64,000 nucleotides of DNA from Haloferax marisrubri (GTDB lineage: Archaea; Halobacteriota; Halobacteria; Halobacteriales; Haloferacaceae), in the NCBI RefSeq assembly GCF_001469875.2, contig NZ_LOPW02000005.1, positions 186,001-250,000 on the forward strand, written 5' to 3'. The notes under the pieces were generated by a model. The model was not told the origin of the DNA. It worked only from the letters and a program-made list of their open reading frames with translations, and searched no databases. This document shows positions 3,292 to 56,153 of this stretch, piece by piece. The position numbers were made by a program, and so were the translations under genes. Each line of letters starts with the position of its first letter. Position 1 is the stretch's first letter.

Positions 3292-3768
3292 GTGAGCGTC
3301 AACGTGGAGATGCGGGTCGACGCCCCCGGCCAGCGCGAGTACGCCGAGGAGGCGTGGGACCTGAAAGAGCGGATTCGGGTCGATGAGGGGCTCCTGAAAC
3401 AGCGACGGGGCTTCTTCATGGACGCCTACCGCCGGTCGAACACGTATCTCCTCTACGAGAACGACGCGCTCGTCGCGTTCGCCTCCACGCGGCGCGACGG
3501 CTACATCCTCTTTCTCGCGGTCTCGCCCGACGCCCGCGGCGAGGGCTACGGCAAGCGACTCGTCGCCGAGGTCGCCAAGGAACACCCGGTCGTGACCTGT
3601 CACGCCCGGACGACGAACACGAACGCGCTCGACTTCTACGAGAAGATGGGCTTCGAGGTCCGCCGCCGCATCGACAACTACTACGAGGACGGCGGGGCCG
3701 CGTTCTACCTCCGACTCGGCGAGGAAGCCGGCCTCCGAGAGAAGCTCTCGGAGTTCCTCCGCCGGTAA
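3292..3768 (+). CDS. GNAT family N-acetyltransferase
   Basis: 158 residues from the GTG at 3292. An AT-rich TATA-like element (about 3262-3269) is ~27 nt upstream, which favours this leaderless GTG; the ATG at 3310 is an alternative. The GNAT acetyl-CoA loop is visible as SPDARGEGYGKRLV (RGxGxG-type), followed by the NTNALDFYEKMGFEV segment typical of RimI-like enzymes. It transfers an acetyl group from acetyl-CoA to an amine. The substrate cannot be told from sequence; N-terminal protein acetylation is one possibility. Confidence 0.88.
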   Translation: MSVNVEMRVDAPGQREYAEEAWDLKERIRVDEGLLKQRRGFFMDAYRRSNTYLLYENDALVAFASTRRDGYILFLAVSPDARGEGYGKRLVAEVAKEHPVVTCHARTTNTNALDFYEKMGFEVRRRIDNYYEDGGAAFYLRLGEEAGLREKLSEFLRR

Positions 3769-3840
3769 CTGACCGACTGCACCGCATGCGACACCGATTC
3801 GAGAGCCGTCGCGCCGCGTCCCGTCCGGTTGCGCGTATCC

Positions 3841-3852
3841 TTAATTTTTATT
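3841..3852 (+). promoter_or_regulatory. TATA box for the isomerase/dehydrogenase pair
   Basis: An A/T-only 11-mer, TTAATTTTTAT, in otherwise GC-rich DNA lies about 30 nt before the ATG at 3877. This is the normal spacing for a leaderless haloarchaeal transcript. Confidence 0.65.
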
Positions 3853-3876
3853 CACTTCCTAGTATATGTGGTTGAT

Positions 3877-4845
3877 ATGTACATCGGAGTGCTCACTGTC
3901 CCGCTCGGAGACGAACCCCTCGACGACGCGCTCGATTATCTGTCCGGCGTCGGCGTCGACGGCGTCGAACTCGCCGTCGGCGGCTGGCCCGGCGAAGACC
4001 ACGTCGACCGAAGCGCCGTCCTCGCGGACGAGGACGCGCAGGCCGACCTGCTCGATTCGGTCGAGAGCCGAGACCTGCAAATCAGCGCGCTCGCGACGCA
4101 CAACAACCCGCTGCACCCCGTCGAGGAGACGGCCGCCGAGGCCGACACCGAACTCCGCGAGGCCATCGAACTCGCGGACGCCCTCGACGTGAACACCGTC
4201 ACCTGTTTCTCTGGGCTCCCCGCCGGCGGCCCGAACGACGAGGTACCGAACTGGATTACTGCGCCGTGGCCGACCGAGCACGCCGACGCCCACGACTACC
4301 AGTGGGAGGTCGCCGTCGACTACTGGTCCGACCTCGCCGCGTTCGCCGACGACCACGGCGTGGACATCGCCATCGAGATGCACCCGAACATGCTCGTCTA
4401 CGAGCCGACGGGCATGCTGAAGCTCCGCGAGGCGACCAACGAGCGCATCGGCGCGAACTTCGACCCCTCGCACCTCTACTGGCAGGACATCTCCATCACC
4501 GACGCGATTCGGTTCCTCGGCGAGGAGGACGCCATCCACCACTTCCACGCGAAGGACACGAAGGTGTACGAGTCCGAGTCGCGCATCAAGGGCGTCCTCG
4601 ACACGGCCTCCTACGCGGACACCGCCGACCGCTCGTGGCTGTTCCGCTCTATCGGCTACGGCCACGACGAGGGCCACTGGAAGGACGTGGTCTCGACGCT
4701 CCGGATGGTCGGCTACGAGGGCGCGCTCTCCATCGAACACGAGGACGCGCTCACGTCGTCCAAGGAGGGTCTGGAAAAGGCCGTCGACGTGCTCTCGCGC
4801 GCTGTCTTCGAGACGCAACCCGGCGAAGCCTACTGGGCGGAGTAA
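3877..4845 (+). CDS. Sugar phosphate isomerase/epimerase (xylose isomerase-like TIM barrel)
   Basis: 322 residues. The barrel's metal site can be followed through the chain: Glu in IAIEMHPN, Asp/His in NFDPSHLYW, His in HFHAKD and Glu in SIEHED. This is the E-D-H-E ligand pattern of the AP endonuclease family 2 / IolE-type superfamily. Such enzymes isomerise or epimerise keto-sugars or inosose-like compounds with Mn2+ or Mg2+. The stop is 3 nt before the next gene, a Gfo/Idh/MocA dehydrogenase, so the two likely act in sequence on one polyol or sugar. The start is chosen from the TATA box at 3841. The exact substrate is unknown. Confidence 0.9.
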   Translation: MYIGVLTVPLGDEPLDDALDYLSGVGVDGVELAVGGWPGEDHVDRSAVLADEDAQADLLDSVESRDLQISALATHNNPLHPVEETAAEADTELREAIELADALDVNTVTCFSGLPAGGPNDEVPNWITAPWPTEHADAHDYQWEVAVDYWSDLAAFADDHGVDIAIEMHPNMLVYEPTGMLKLREATNERIGANFDPSHLYWQDISITDAIRFLGEEDAIHHFHAKDTKVYESESRIKGVLDTASYADTADRSWLFRSIGYGHDEGHWKDVVSTLRMVGYEGALSIEHEDALTSSKEGLEKAVDVLSRAVFETQPGEAYWAE

Positions 4846-48915: not shown

Positions 48916-49287
48916 ATGCCACACCTCCAGTTCGACCTCGACTTCGAGGTCACGGAACGCGAGGCGGACCGGTTCGCGGCCGAGATGGCCGAGCTGTACG
49001 CCGAGCGGATGGACGCCGACACCGACTACGCCGCCGTCAGCGTCCGCGAGGTCCGGGCGATTCACCTCGGCCGGGCGACCGAGGGGAAGACCGTCGTGCT
49101 GCAAGCCGACATCCGCGCGGGCCGGTCGGCGGACCAGAAGCGCGACCTCGCCCTCGCGGTCATCGACGCCGTCGCCGAGCGGTTCGGCGTGCCGGAGTCG
49201 AACCAGAAGGTCGTCTTCACCGAACACGAGGGGAGTCAGATGATGGGCTACGACCGCGTCGGCGACGACTGGTCCGAGTCCGCCTGA
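48916..49287 (+). CDS. Tautomerase superfamily protein (4-OT/MIF-like)
   Basis: 123 residues. After Met removal the N-terminus is Pro (MPHLQFDLDFEV), the catalytic base of tautomerases. The chain (AAEMAELYAERM ... VSVREVRAIHLG ... VVLQADIRAGRSADQKRDLALAVIDAVAERFGV) follows the beta-alpha-beta duplicated pattern of the longer MIF/CHMI-like branch. It may interconvert keto and enol acids. It is co-transcribed with the aminotransferase. Its 3' end overlaps the 3' end of the convergent histidine kinase gene by 40 nt. Confidence 0.82.
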   Translation: MPHLQFDLDFEVTEREADRFAAEMAELYAERMDADTDYAAVSVREVRAIHLGRATEGKTVVLQADIRAGRSADQKRDLALAVIDAVAERFGVPESNQKVVFTEHEGSQMMGYDRVGDDWSESA

Positions 49288-51140
49288 CCGTCATCGGCGG
49301 TCCGGAGTTCGACCGCGAAGACGGACCCGCAGGGGTCGTTGTCCTCGACCCACACGTCGCCGCCGTACGTCTCGACCAGCGACTGCACGAGATACAGCCC
49401 GAGGCCGGTTCCCCGGCTCTCCAGTCCCTTTTCGTCCTTGGCGAAGACGGTCTCCTTCCGCTCGTCGGGTATCCCGCGCCCGTCGTCGGCGACGCGGACG
49501 ACGACGCGGTCTTTCGCCTCGGACTCCGAGACGGAGAGTTCGACGCTCGGCTCGTCCTTGTCGGTGTGCTGGACGGCGTTCGTGAGGAGGTTCCGGAAGA
49601 CGGAGCCGAGCATGTCGTCGGCGAGCACCGCCACCGGAGGAATCTCGGACTCGACCGTCACGGTCGCGTCCGGTGCCATATCCCGGAGCGACGCGAGTTC
49701 GGATTCGAGTACGGGTCGCAGCCGAACCGTCTCGTTTTCGACGCCTCGACTGCTCATCATCTCGGCCATGTCCCGCGCCGTCTCCGTCAGCTCGACCGCG
49801 TGGTTGGCTCGCTTCCGGACGATTTCGACGAACTCCCGCGCCTCCTCGTCGGCGATGTGCTCGCCGAGCAGTTCCGCGTAGGCGGTCACCAACTGCAGGT
49901 CGTTGCGAACGTCGTGGCGGACGACCTGATTCAGCACGGCGAGCTCGTCGCGTTGCGTTTCGAGGAGGCGGTTCTGTTCGCGGAGCTCCGCCTCGTAGCG
50001 CTTCCGCGTCGTGATGTCGCGGGCGACGCTCAACACGACCGTCTCCCCGCGGTAGGTCACGAGGCTCGAACTGATTTCGACGGGTATCTCCCGACCGTCT
50101 TTCGCCCGATGGACCGTCTCGAACACCTGCGTCCCGTCGGTCGGCATCTGGGAGATGAGCGCCGAAATCTCGTCGTTGCTGAGTCCCGCGTCGATGTCGT
50201 GGACCGTCATCGAGAGGAGTTCCTCCCGCGAGTAACCCAGCAGTTCCACCGCGGTCTCGTTCACCGTGCGAATCTGGTCGTCGAGGCCGAGGACCCAGAC
50301 GGTGTCGTTCATCCCGTCGATGAGTTCTTGATACTCCTCGCGGGCGCGTTTCAGTTTCTGCTCTCGCTCCTGTCGTTCGGTGACGTCCCTCGACACGGCG
50401 ATGACGCCGACCACCTCACCGGCCACCCGAAGCGGCGCGAAGCGGTAGCTCAGTATCCGCGATTCGCCGTCCGGCGTGGTGAGTTCGGTCTCGCCTTCGA
50501 GGCAGTCTGCCTCGCCGTCCAAGAGCCGCTGATACGGGTCGCCCGGGCGTTCTTCGCGAATCGTCTCGACGAGGAGGCTCCGCTCGCCTTCGAGTTCGGC
50601 GGGCGTCGTCCCGTAGAACCCGGCGAGGTAGTCGCTCACGAGTACGAACCGACCGTCGCGGTCGTACAGGCACGCCCCCTCCAGTATCTGTTCGAAGACG
50701 CGCTCGTAGACGAGCGACGGGTCGACCGGCCGCCGGTTGGACGCCGCGACCGCCCGCTCGACCCGGACGGCCAACTCGTCGTATCCCTCCGCGTCCTGCG
50801 CCTGGACGTAGTCGGTGACGCCGGCGTCGAGGGCGTCGCTCGCCGTCATCTCGGGCTCGCCGCCGGCAACGACGAAAAACGGAAGCCCCGCGTCTCGCTT
50901 CCGAACCGCGGCGAGGAAGTCGAGCGCGTCCGACTCTCCCGCGTCGGCCGCCGAGACGACGCAGTCGAAGTCGGAGCCGGCGTCGGCGCTCCCGAGCACG
51001 TCCAGCCCCGCAGTCGCGGTCCGAACCGCCTCGACCTCGAACCGCGCCTCCCGACGGCGGACGGCCTCGGTGACCGCCGCCGCGACGCCCGAGTCGGCGA
51101 CGACGAGAATCCCCACCGCTCCGCTACCTCCATCGGTCAT
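49248..51140 (-). CDS. PAS sensor histidine kinase with degenerate receiver domain
   Basis: 630 residues. An N-terminal receiver-like domain (about 10-130) lacks the phospho-acceptor: in DFDCVVSAADAG Ala64 stands where Asp is expected. Two PAS domains follow (about 145-260 and 265-385). HisKA has RHDVRNDLQLV with H409, and HATPase shows SVFRNLLTNAVQHTDK and VVRVADDGRGIPDERKETVF (N, G1). No transmembrane helices are visible, so it senses a cytoplasmic signal. No partner response regulator is adjacent, as is common in haloarchaea. Confidence 0.93.
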   Translation of the reverse strand: MTDGGSGAVGILVVADSGVAAAVTEAVRRREARFEVEAVRTATAGLDVLGSADAGSDFDCVVSAADAGESDALDFLAAVRKRDAGLPFFVVAGGEPEMTASDALDAGVTDYVQAQDAEGYDELAVRVERAVAASNRRPVDPSLVYERVFEQILEGACLYDRDGRFVLVSDYLAGFYGTTPAELEGERSLLVETIREERPGDPYQRLLDGEADCLEGETELTTPDGESRILSYRFAPLRVAGEVVGVIAVSRDVTERQEREQKLKRAREEYQELIDGMNDTVWVLGLDDQIRTVNETAVELLGYSREELLSMTVHDIDAGLSNDEISALISQMPTDGTQVFETVHRAKDGREIPVEISSSLVTYRGETVVLSVARDITTRKRYEAELREQNRLLETQRDELAVLNQVVRHDVRNDLQLVTAYAELLGEHIADEEAREFVEIVRKRANHAVELTETARDMAEMMSSRGVENETVRLRPVLESELASLRDMAPDATVTVESEIPPVAVLADDMLGSVFRNLLTNAVQHTDKDEPSVELSVSESEAKDRVVVRVADDGRGIPDERKETVFAKDEKGLESRGTGLGLYLVQSLVETYGGDVWVEDNDPCGSVFAVELRTADDGQADSDQSSPTRS

Positions 51141-51265
51141 TACCTAGGACACTCAGGTGCGCCAAATAAAAGGTAGCGTGCCGGTCCGTCGCGCTCCCGA
51201 TGCGATTACCCGGTTGTAACACCCAGTAGCAACACTTTTGTGACGACCGCCGAGACCACGACGGC

Positions 51266-52624
51266 ATGAACGAACCCAGACTCGACGTATCGGCGGTGAC
51301 AGACGGCGACTGGCGGGGATATCTCTCGGAGATGGGCCCGTCGTGGGTCGCGGGCGCGGTCGCGGCGGGGCCGGCGACGATGGCGACCGTGCTCACGGCC
51401 GGCGCGACGTTCGGCTACGCGATGCTGTGGGTCGTGGTGCTCTCGGCGGTCCTCGGCGCGTCGGCGCAGTACCTCTCGATGCGACTCGGACTGCTCACCG
51501 AGTCGGGACTCGTGGGCGTGGTCGAACGCGAGTTGGGCGACGGCTGGGCGTGGGTGCTCGTCGCCGACGCGGTGCTGGCCGCGGGGCTGGCCCAACTGGT
51601 CATCATGAAAGGACTCGCGGACGTGAGCGCGACGATAACCGGCCTCGACGCCCGGGTATGGGGCGTCGTGTGGGCGGTCGTCCTCGCCGCCGGCCTCGCC
51701 GGGCGGGGCTACCGCTTCGTCGAACTCCTCGCGAAGGGACTCGTCGCGGCCGTCGTCGTCGCGTTCCTCGCGTCGCTGTTCTTCGTCCCCATCGACCCGG
51801 CGGCCGCGGCCGGCGGACTCGTGCCGCGCATCCCCGCCGGGGTCGACGGCGCGCTCGTCGCCGCCGGCATCCTCGGGGGCGCGGTCCACATCACGCTCAT
51901 CACGATGCACTCGTACACGATGCGCGCCCGCGACTGGACGACCCGCGACTACGGACTGGCGACGTTCGACGTGGGCGCGTCGATGCTCGTCGCCTTCGGC
52001 GTCTACAGCCTCGCCATCTTCCTCGTCGCCGCGGGCGTCCTCCACACTCCCGAGGTGGCCGCGAGCGACCTCTCGGCGGTGGCGGCCGCGCAGGCGCTCG
52101 GCCCGCTGGCGGGCGCGAACGCGAAGTGGCTGTTCCTCCTCGGCCTTCTGGGCGCGGCCGTCTCCACGCTCGGCGGCAACACCGTCGTCCCGCCGTACCT
52201 CGTCGCCGACAAACTCGGTTGGGGGACTGACCTCTCGGACGACCGGTACCGCGCGCTCCTCGCGGGCGTGGCGCTGTTCTCCGGCGTCGGAGCGTTCCTC
52301 GGCGGCGCGTTCTTCCCGCTTCTCGTGTTGGTGCTGGCGTTCGGTCTCGTCGGCACGCCCTTCGCCATCGCGGTCGTGCTCGTCTTGCTCAACAGCGATG
52401 CGGTCGCGGAGCCGAACTCGACGCTGGCGAACTTCGGCGGCGTCGTCCTGCTCGCGGTCACGACCGTTCTCGCCGCGAACTTCGTCCGCTCGCGGGCGCT
52501 TTCGGACCTCGGCGACCCGCTTTCGGTGTTCGTCGTCGTCTTCGCCGCGGCGATGGGGGCGGCGACGCTCGGCCTGCTCGGCAAGTTCGTCCGCGAGGCG
52601 GTCGGTCGGCCGACTGCGGCCTGA
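51266..52624 (+). CDS. Nramp-fold transporter with altered substrate site
   Basis: 452 residues and about eleven helices. The overall sequence (PSWVAGAVAAGPATMATVLTAGATFGYAMLWVVVLS) aligns with the first helices of Nramp Mn2+/Fe2+ transporters. However, the helix 1 DPGN metal motif reads GPAT (35-38) and the helix 6 MPH motif reads HIT (208-210). The residues that bind transition metal are therefore gone. It may carry another ion or small molecule, or be a non-transporting relative. NxxTVVPPYLVADKL is kept. It is flanked by the histidine kinase, which is divergent, and a flippase gene. Confidence 0.85.
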   Translation: MNEPRLDVSAVTDGDWRGYLSEMGPSWVAGAVAAGPATMATVLTAGATFGYAMLWVVVLSAVLGASAQYLSMRLGLLTESGLVGVVERELGDGWAWVLVADAVLAAGLAQLVIMKGLADVSATITGLDARVWGVVWAVVLAAGLAGRGYRFVELLAKGLVAAVVVAFLASLFFVPIDPAAAAGGLVPRIPAGVDGALVAAGILGGAVHITLITMHSYTMRARDWTTRDYGLATFDVGASMLVAFGVYSLAIFLVAAGVLHTPEVAASDLSAVAAAQALGPLAGANAKWLFLLGLLGAAVSTLGGNTVVPPYLVADKLGWGTDLSDDRYRALLAGVALFSGVGAFLGGAFFPLLVLVLAFGLVGTPFAIAVVLVLLNSDAVAEPNSTLANFGGVVLLAVTTVLAANFVRSRALSDLGDPLSVFVVVFAAAMGAATLGLLGKFVREAVGRPTAA

Positions 52625-54470: not shown

Positions 54471-56153
54471 TCAGGGTAGGTCAGTTGGGGAGACGTCGAA
54501 TCGCTTGAGGAACTTCTGTACCGCCTCGTCACCCCCGACAATGGTTATTCGCTCGTCCCCGGAGAACTGCCGCTGCGGGTCGACCGAAACTGTCTGTCCG
54601 TCACCGTCCTCGATAGCGATGACGCGACAGCCGGTTCGTTCGTAGATGCGGGAGTTTCCGAGTGTCGACCCCGAAAACGGTGTGGACGGCACGCGAACGA
54701 GGCGAATCTGGCTCGCCGGCGCGAGGACGTCCTCACCTCGAAGCTCCTTTGCGACCATCCTCGCGCTCACTCGCGGGACCGAGAGGACGTAGTCGGCGCC
54801 GGCGCTGAACGCCTTCTGGGTGGCCTCTGCGTCTCCAACCCGGGTGAGGACCTCTATCTCGGGGTTGATAGACTGTGCGAGCACGGTCGTCAAGAGCGCA
54901 ATCGAATCGTCTGGGACGCCGATGATGATTGCCCCGGCGCTTTCGACCCCTGCGGCGAGCAACACTTCCCGGGCCCCTCCGTCGCCGACGATATCGACGC
55001 CCGGGCGGTCCTCGACGTCGACTGTGACGACTTCACCGCCGGACTCCTCGATGACCGACTTTGCGGCGCGACCGACTTCTCCCAACCCCACGAGCACGAA
55101 ACGCTCGTGTCCGGTGAACGACCGGGGTGGTCGGGTGAACTCGCTCAGGTTCTTGAGTGCGGCCTCCTCCCCGGACACTAACAGAACGGTGTTCGGACGG
55201 ACGACTGCGTCTGGGCTGGGTGGCAACTGTAGCTCGCCGTCGAGCCACGCACCGACGATGTTGGCACCGGTTCGCTCTCTAACCCTGGTCTCTCTGATAC
55301 TACGCCCCACGAGCTCGCTCGATTCGGAGACTGGGAGCTCCATCAGTCTCGTGTCTCCCCCGAGTTCGATGGTGTCTCGCAGTTCAGAGCTGAACGAGGC
55401 GACGGCTTTCTCTGCGAGACGGTGTCCTAAGACGCCGTGCGGTGACAGCACGGTATCTGCGCCGACGGTGCGCAGTATCTCCTCCATTCTGCTGTCGTCG
55501 GTCAGCGCGATGACGTCGATATCAGGCCGTACTCCTCGGACAGTAAGTATCGTGTTGACGTTCGCATCGCCGGCGTCGGTGATGACCGTCCGTGCAGTCT
55601 TGATGCTGGCCCGCTCAAACGTTGTCGTCGCTTGTGGAGAGCCGTGAATGGCGGCGTAGCCACGGTTTGAGAGTGATTCGGCGTCTTCCCGTGAGGACGA
55701 AATGAGCACGTAATCGATGCCAAATTCTCTGAGTTCGTCCAGGAGAATTGCAGAGTCCCGGCGGTACTCACAGATGATGACGTGGCCGTTTTTCGGGCTG
55801 AGTCGGTCGTCGAGGTTGACCTCGGCGCTGGTGAACAGGGGAATGATGATGAGACGGAGAGTGAAAAACCCGACTGCGATACCGGAAATCTGAATCAAGG
55901 CGACGAACAGGAACATCAGCGGATGGCTCCAGATGTCCGAGTCTTGCCCGTAGCCCGTGGTGGTCATCGTCTGAATGACGAACTCGAACGAGGCGAAAAT
56001 GGACTGATTGGCGCCTTCGAGCCGCGCTAGTGCGTAGTTGTATGCCACTGTGTAGAGGACGATGAGTAACACGAGCCCGGTGAGGTAGTAGATGACGTGT
56101 CGGATTCGACGGCTTGGTTCGAACCGACGAATGGACTCGGGGAGTGGCGACAT
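54471..56153 (-). CDS. Two-helix K+ channel with two TrkA/RCK modules
   Basis: 560 residues. Helices at about 20-44 and 78-105 frame the pore loop with filter TTGYGQ (65-70). Two RCK units follow, each with a Rossmann-like TrkA-N (HVIICEYRRDSAILLDEL from about 124 and FVLVGLGEVGRAAKSVIEE from about 348) and TrkA-C parts (VGRSIRETRVRERTGANIVG; GSTLGNSRIYERTGCRVIAIEDG). Such proteins gate K+ in response to nucleotides or ions, central to a salt-in halophile. The gene's GC and third-position bias are visibly lower than its neighbours. It lies beside a gene fragment, suggesting acquisition by transfer. Confidence 0.92.
   Translation of the reverse strand: MSPLPESIRRFEPSRRIRHVIYYLTGLVLLIVLYTVAYNYALARLEGANQSIFASFEFVIQTMTTTGYGQDSDIWSHPLMFLFVALIQISGIAVGFFTLRLIIIPLFTSAEVNLDDRLSPKNGHVIICEYRRDSAILLDELREFGIDYVLISSSREDAESLSNRGYAAIHGSPQATTTFERASIKTARTVITDAGDANVNTILTVRGVRPDIDVIALTDDSRMEEILRTVGADTVLSPHGVLGHRLAEKAVASFSSELRDTIELGGDTRLMELPVSESSELVGRSIRETRVRERTGANIVGAWLDGELQLPPSPDAVVRPNTVLLVSGEEAALKNLSEFTRPPRSFTGHERFVLVGLGEVGRAAKSVIEESGGEVVTVDVEDRPGVDIVGDGGAREVLLAAGVESAGAIIIGVPDDSIALLTTVLAQSINPEIEVLTRVGDAEATQKAFSAGADYVLSVPRVSARMVAKELRGEDVLAPASQIRLVRVPSTPFSGSTLGNSRIYERTGCRVIAIEDGDGQTVSVDPQRQFSGDERITIVGGDEAVQKFLKRFDVSPTDLP

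Follow-up and report, generated by a model that had tools for sequence, protein, structure and literature searches.

The window, by which we mean the whole 64-kb stretch of Haloferax marisrubri DNA that was analyzed, carries an intact open reading frame for a transporter related to the Nramp proteins, running from an ATG start codon to a stop codon (Table 1). A putative operator of the thiamin regulon lies in the gap between this gene and a divergently oriented gene for a PAS-domain histidine kinase. Related histidine kinases were noticed near some relatives of the transporter gene, and the operator could affect the divergent gene too. Elsewhere in the window, on the opposite strand, is a gene for a protein of 560 aa that contains two stretches each of TrkA-N and TrkA-C and whose best NCBIfam match was a voltage-gated potassium channel protein.

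Table 1. Positions of the genes, motifs, and regulatory site in the window
Feature	Position	Strand	Details
PAS-domain histidine kinase gene	49251-51140	-	Divergent to the transporter gene
Putative thiamin-regulon operator, GATTACCCGGTTGTAACACCCAGT	51204-51227	+	Identified with the thiC-promoter matrix; 39 nt upstream of the start codon
Nramp-like (PF01566) transporter gene, haloarchaeal GPAT/VHITL clade	51266-52624	+	452 aa; open reading frame, Pfam profile, and tree
GPAT, break of helix 1	51368-51379	+	Codons 35 to 38; replaces DPGN; alignment, conservation, and model
QLVI, helix 3	51593-51604	+	Codons 110 to 113; Gln and Ile replace presumed proton-path residues Asp131 and Glu134 of DraNramp
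HIT, break of helix 6	51887-51895	+	Codons 208 to 210; replaces MPH; His208 invariant in the clade
Gene for TrkA-N/TrkA-C protein	54474-56153	-	560 aa

Nramp proteins are the textbook carriers of metal ions. The product of the transporter gene matched the Nramp profile PF01566 with 242.3 bits against a curated cut-off of 29.8, and it is the sole match to this profile in its own genome (3.9 Mb, 26 contigs). Three Nramp models of NCBIfam also matched, none of which reached its own cut-off. The nearest named loci belong to Haloferax species (93 to 96% identity). Where members of the clade are annotated, they carry the database label "divalent metal cation transporter."

According to the initial annotation, GPAT stands in place of DPGN in helix 1 and HIT in place of MPH in helix 6. 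A phmmer alignment to DraNramp bore this out, with GPAT under DPGN and VHIT under VMPH. Because both helices were aligned without gaps, no shift can bring back DPGN or MPH, and the alternative of a misplaced alignment was ruled out. Following the residue numbers that we assume for DraNramp, its metal ligands D56, N59, M230, and Q378 correspond to G35, T38, H208, and L357, and D131, E134, and H232, which we take to be its proton-path residues, correspond to Q110, I113, and T210. The query thus has neither the DPGN and MPH motifs nor the proton-path residues of Slc11/Nramp transition-metal importers, whereas H237 and R244 of DraNramp are retained as H215 and R222.

Conservation was assessed in 49 clade members, comprising the window sequence and 48 of the 49 loci from a pattern scan (the truncated locus L078 was left out). 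Positions G35, A37, Q110, I113, H208, T213, M214, Y217, N305, and L357 were invariant, T210 was found in 48 members, and residue 38 was either Thr or Ser. Since so many residues are fixed, this constraint speaks for a working protein.

A structure model of the transporter was obtained with AlphaFold from a 45-row alignment (mean pLDDT, 85.4). Helix 1 is broken at residues 34 and 35 and helix 6 at residues 207 and 208, coinciding with the GPAT and HIT stretches, and His208 sits in the break of helix 6. The predicted model therefore adopts a LeuT fold in which helices 1 and 6 are interrupted, as is expected of PF01566. The best match among solved structures was DraNramp (6c3i_A; Z score, 46.8; rmsd, 2.1 over 374 residues; 26% identity), in agreement with the earlier view that the Nramp scaffold is retained. 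It was followed by EleNRMT (7qji_A; Z score, 44.2) and the model of YcsG (9a52_A; Z score, 42.1), and amino acid carriers matched from a Z score of 28.9 downward.

We built a tree of 37 chosen sequences, consisting of 18 from the query clade, 8 from the haloarchaeal GPGT/TxVxY clade (named, as are the others, after its helix 1 and helix 6 motifs), 5 MntH proteins, and 6 others. The query clade was monophyletic with full support (100/100) and sits on a long branch. The MntH and GPGT clades were separate and also supported; in the comparison of the query and GPGT clades, both were monophyletic (100/100 and 97/98), and the query fell outside the GPGT clade. The phylogeny that had been proposed as a check separated the query clade from canonical MntH, but the deep branching order of the PF01566 clades in the 37-sequence tree was weak (support of 64/40, with a long-branch warning).

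The helix 1 and helix 6 motifs differ between clades. MntH proteins have DPGN/MPH and bacterial NRMT-like proteins have DPSG/ISP, while the haloarchaeal clades have GPGT/TxVxY, GSGS/ALWP (L074 and L154), or, in the query clade, GPAT/VHITL. Because the first two of these haloarchaeal motifs are likewise without metal residues, several PF01566 clades have lost them, and the loss is not unique to the query. Metal-site loss in PF01566 is already known: excerpts of two papers by Cellier describe an "orphan" outgroup of the family without the Slc11 site (PMC10606218, PMC9606685), which the Thr, Val, and Tyr in helix 6 of the GPGT clade resemble, as far as the excerpt of the former goes. The GPGT and query clades are alike in being without the helix 1 and 6 metal ligands, and many genomes carry both. 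They differ in their helix 3 and 6 motifs, in their position in the tree, and in their neighborhoods, as none of 20 GPGT loci lies near thiamin genes. The annotation was right about the Mg2+ and Al3+ types, which retain part of the site, since the motifs given in part of a study on these proteins are DxxG-TxxA/T for NRMT and DxxN-AxxT for NRAT (PMC8806188). The query clade conforms to neither, having GxxT/S in helix 1 and GxxH in helix 6.

The regulatory site links the gene to thiamin metabolism. The box was first noticed by eye in upstream regions of this genome and of relatives and was then derived from thiC promoters. A Gibbs search of 20 haloarchaeal thiC upstream regions, from which the query's own genome and the transporter gene had been left out, recovered a box resembling TATTACYTAGTRATATNACYTAGT from 19 of them; the remaining region (L132) had no such site and was dropped. 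When the 64-kb window was scanned with the resulting matrix, the site upstream of the transporter gene scored best (16.94), its own reverse reading reached 11.05, and the next unrelated site reached 9.31. A score of 12 was reached at none of 648,154 positions, which came from control loci and from the remainder of the window.

The same matrix was applied to 62 clade promoters (49 including that of the window and 13 from plasmid loci, with three records doubled and one identical pair). Compared with 2,494 background windows, 47 promoters scored at a P value of <0.05 and 41 at a P value of <0.01, leaving 15 that were not significant at the former level. The score exceeded all background windows in 29 promoters (25 distinct sites) but not in the other 33; dinucleotide shuffles of the clade promoters did so in 2 of 3,100 cases. 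Among the 20 GPGT-clade promoters, 5 had a P value of <0.05 and 1 had a P value of <0.01, with a best score of 4.5, indicating that A+T-rich promoters raise the score slightly.

An IUPAC pattern of the box, composed after the thiC, thi4, and query sites had been seen and used with at most one mismatch, occurred at three places only in the query's genome: before thiC, before thi4, and before the transporter gene. These correspond to five matches, as two of the sites match on the other strand too, and the reversed pattern gave none in this genome. Across 12 Haloferax genomes, at least three places were found in nine, and in G195, G196, and G199, the pattern matched at single places only, each time with one mismatch. 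For the five further genomes among these nine whose match positions were available, the sites before the transporter gene and thiC were confirmed by position, and the thi4 site was judged by its sequence only. The tenA promoter of the query's own genome reached a score of only 7.25.

In haloarchaea, thiamin genes are controlled by ThiR, and a gene with the HTH-ThiN architecture of this regulator is located near thi4 in the query's genome (L120, positions 3497 to 4396, minus strand). The transporter gene shares its operator with thiC and thi4, as is expected of a member of the haloarchaeal thiamin (ThiR) regulon. We consider it probable that, by way of the box at 51204 to 51227, ThiR controls the transporter gene along with thiC and thi4, in which case the importer would be made when thiamin phosphates are scarce. 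In a 2017 paper, the ThiR regulons of haloarchaea reportedly include thiamin-related transporters, and the Nramp-like gene may be listed among them. A thiamin pyrophosphate (TPP) riboswitch was sought in the window and at five relatives' loci, with no Rfam match above the gathering score. A scan for bacterial promoters and terminators, which is unsuited to archaea, returned nothing, and a search for perfect palindromes upstream of the gene was uninformative.

The gene neighborhoods point the same way. Clusters of open reading frames within about 6 kb of the transporter gene were compiled for 49 loci and checked by tblastn. TenA (TENA_THI-4; thiaminase II or its TenA paralogue) was encoded at 17 loci and absent from this distance at 32, a sodium:solute symporter of the SSS type (SSF) was encoded at 8, a ThiD-ThiN fusion (Phos_pyr_kin and ThiN) and a PhyH-family dioxygenase at 5 each, and a P-loop protein at 34. 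As a control, 20 GPGT-clade loci of the same class (L094 to L113) were searched with six neighbor queries, none of which matched at any locus. In Haloferax larsenii, the TenA gene is located directly upstream of the transporter gene. No thiamin gene adjoins the transporter gene in the query's own genome, where the operator alone makes the thiamin link and a tenA-tenA2-SSS set resides on another contig (L118). In L054, L064, L066, L068, L071, and L083, a PhyH-family dioxygenase gene lies immediately upstream of the transporter gene; its product could act on the transported compound.

Similar neighbors were found on plasmids. A tblastn search of plasmid records with the transporter returned 15 records, of which 13 were examined with flanks of 8 to 12 kb. 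They contained TenA (8 loci, counting a match of only 50 residues in L087), SSS (4 loci), ThiD (2 loci), the P-loop protein (11 loci), and PhyH (1 locus). These counts overlap, as three of the records duplicate contigs L044, L050, and L056, and L046 does not differ from L048 over this stretch. In a plasmid of Halobaculum roseum (L084:9974-17153), genes for the transporter, the P-loop protein, SSS, the TenA paralogue, TenA, ThiD, and a ThiN protein lie within 7.2 kb, which suggests that the thiamin-salvage trait can move between haloarchaea.

The most frequent neighbor, the P-loop protein (about 184 aa; e.g., L077:7317-7868), was encoded at 40 places, spread over 39 of 194 genomes, and each of these adjoins the transporter gene, at a distance of -3 to 123 nt. 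At several loci, its gene begins before the transporter gene has ended. Conversely, 40 of 88 transporter gene places have this neighbor, and that of the window is without it. The protein belongs to no Pfam or NCBIfam family at an E value of 0.001, and a search of PDB sequences gave no convincing match (best E value, 0.086). The folds nearest to its structure model (pLDDT, 89.6) were those of Rho, CobU, CobA, and type II thymidine kinase, which scored alike (Z score, about 12). Because of this tie, the label "kinase" is a guess, as is the notion, taken from the modeled fold, that an ATPase or kinase might act here on the imported compound. There was no sign that the P-loop protein substitutes for TenA: of the 87 genomes with the transporter gene, 7 have the P-loop protein without TenA and 4 have neither.

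Relatives of the transporter (E value of ≤1e-40; full-length matches with 58 to 100% identity) were found in 87 of 194 Halobacteria genomes, representing 37 of 65 genera. A scan of genome contigs with six peptide patterns yielded 49 loci, all with haloarchaeal names, and the 15 plasmid records contained no bacterial member, every organism name shown being haloarchaeal. Distribution of the gene is correlated with that of TenA, which was present in 76 of the 87 genomes with the gene and in 47 of the 107 without it. Eleven genomes have the transporter gene only and 60 have neither (Fisher's exact test, P = 1.6e-10, with kinship ignored).

The gene-bearing genomes without thiC, 20 of 87, are informative about the role of the transporter. 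All 20 have TenA and 18 have Thi4, which is what pyrimidine auxotrophy predicts. A ThiV-like symporter (E value of ≤1e-60) was present in 15 and missing from 5, and in the latter, the Nramp-like protein is therefore a candidate import route. Conversely, thiC is present in every one of the 11 gene-bearing genomes that have no TenA, and the ThiV-like symporter is absent from the 9 of them that were tested. An aminopyrimidine as the sole substrate would presumably not serve these genomes. Thiamin or the pyrimidine moiety HMP needs no TenA and fits both groups, which makes either the simplest substrate. It should be noted that 67 of the 87 genomes have thiC and hence no need for pyrimidine import, which counts against this reading.

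Operator, neighbors, and co-occurrence are three independent lines that agree, the first two with negative controls. On these grounds, we consider it likely that the protein is an Nramp-superfamily secondary importer with a LeuT fold, re-purposed from metal transport to vitamin B1 salvage, most likely for thiamin or its pyrimidine moiety. The Nramp-like protein would take up thiamin, HMP, or a compound closely related to HMP. Its predicted binding site, at the unwound centers of helices 1 and 6, would be formed by Gly35, Thr/Ser38, and the invariant His208, together with the invariant Gln110 of helix 3, and would be free of the Nramp carboxylates. Since the proton relay of Nramp proteins is gone, transport is probably coupled to another ion, such as Na+. 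Imported HMP could pass to ThiD, and thiamin or aminopyrimidines may pass to TenA. In about half of the relatives, the neighboring gene probably supplies a dedicated P-loop ATPase or kinase for trapping or modifying the substrate. A more specific proposal can be put forward only tentatively, with the odds somewhat against it: a haloarchaea-only Nramp clade (within the genome contigs, Halobacteria genomes, and plasmid records searched) would import B1 or pyrimidine through a site altered from Asp to Gly and from Met to His, and about half of its members would form a two-gene module, sometimes plasmid borne, with a dedicated and previously undescribed P-loop kinase, encoded by the overlapping or neighboring gene and at no other locus, that traps the compound by phosphorylating it.

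Thiamin enzymes need Mg2+ or Fe2+, and His208 could still bind metal. It is conceivable, though unlikely, that the protein imports Mg2+, Fe2+, or Mn2+ through a rebuilt site and is co-regulated with thiamin genes to supply the metal required by ThiC (Fe-S), Thi4 (Fe), or the enzymes that use thiamin diphosphate (Mg2+). Consistent with this, it belongs to PF01566, no second member of which is encoded in its genome, its nearest solved structures are metal transporters, and YcsG, an Nramp-family protein of a 5-oxoproline operon, was reported in an excerpt to raise cellular Mn2+ (PMC10448178). However, the metal ligands and proton-path residues of DraNramp are replaced by residues that are fixed or nearly so, the linked neighbors are salvage enzymes and a symporter, and the gene often occurs without thiC. 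A carrier of the thiazole moiety (hydroxyethylthiazole), with the P-loop protein as a thiazole kinase, is considerably less probable. It would account for the link to the thiamin regulon, and the ATPase- or kinase-like fold of the partner suits a substrate that needs phosphorylation, but the main partners, TenA and ThiD, work on the pyrimidine side, and the Thi4 retained in nearly all thiC-less gene-bearing genomes should make their own thiazole. An unrelated carrier of amino acids or other organic solutes, linked to thiamin by chance neighbors and an A+T-rich promoter, is very improbable given the three agreeing lines and their controls for operator and neighbors, even though the structural matches that follow Nramp are LeuT-fold amino acid carriers and many loci have no thiamin genes nearby.

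The reading as a thiamin or pyrimidine importer can be compared with known systems. DraNramp and MntH, which are H+-coupled Mn2+/Fe2+ importers, share with the query PF01566, the fold, and the positions of the breaks in helices 1 and 6 but belong to a separate clade and have the residues that are all replaced in the query. EleNRMT and other NRMT proteins, which transport Mg2+/Mn2+ without H+ coupling, share the fold and are also without the canonical DPGN and MPH; they keep the helix 1 Asp, according to the excerpt available (PMC8806188), whereas the query has Gly there and, in place of Met, His. PxpT of C. glutamicum and YcsG of B. subtilis are Nramp-family proteins for which, in the part of the report at hand, transport of 5-oxoproline was proposed from operon and phenotype (PMC13274462), a substrate disputed in an excerpt that describes YcsG as an Mn2+ importer (PMC10448178). 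They resemble the query in being tied to a small organic solute, and YcsG also in its fold, but their partner genes are pxpABC rather than thiamin genes. No pxpABC gene was among the annotated neighbors of query-clade genes at the 13 plasmid loci. The expectation of a new substrate is upheld insofar as operator, neighbors, and co-occurrence point to thiamin salvage, but a non-metal substrate had already been proposed in this family with PxpT/YcsG. ThiV, the SSS-family HMP symporter of SAR11, likewise imports a B1 precursor, and the gene of a ThiV-like SSS protein shares clusters with the transporter gene; it is of another transporter family, as far as the excerpt shows (PMC11452348). Since the ThiV-like and Nramp-like proteins occur together, a difference between them in substrate or affinity is probable.

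What appears to be new is the link of an Nramp-like clade to vitamin B1; the loss of the metal site itself is a confirmation. Known B1 transporters include ThiV, ThiBPQ, ThiT, ThiXYZ, CytX, and YkoF, none of which is described as Nramp-like in the excerpts concerned (PMC11452348, PMC10881298). A 2025 study of Haloarcula and Natrinema genomes discusses thiamin salvage, and the term "nramp" does not occur in the portion available (PMC12029414). In the openly licensed PMC literature, we found no paper that joins Nramp-type transporters with thiamin. If the protein is a vitamin carrier, the label "divalent metal cation transporter" would be wrong across 37 of the 65 sampled haloarchaeal genera, and archaeal thiamin salvage would be supplied with an importer. 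The superfamily would gain a second organic-substrate branch beside PxpT, and the change from a metal site to a site for organic solutes could be tested with a clean family of natural variants.

Several observations were made on individual PF01566 genes of haloarchaea. In Haloferax denitrificans (L035:6001-7357), the transporter gene seems frameshifted near its start, and in G139:C1:1943586-1944892, it is split over two frames; the gene is therefore either under loss in some lineages or mis-assembled. Members of the GSGS/ALWP clade were found at L074:8453-9751 and L154:3923-5185. In Natrinema, the gene of this clade is located among genes for 2-phospho-L-lactate transferase, a CitG-domain protein, a DUF447 protein, and dihydropyrimidine dehydrogenase, and in Halobacterium, it adjoins a TauE-family gene. 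Two Haloferax genomes (G189:C11 and G151:C20) carry a canonical MntH-type PF01566 gene with DPGN and MPH (L004 and L005) about 18 kb from the transporter gene.
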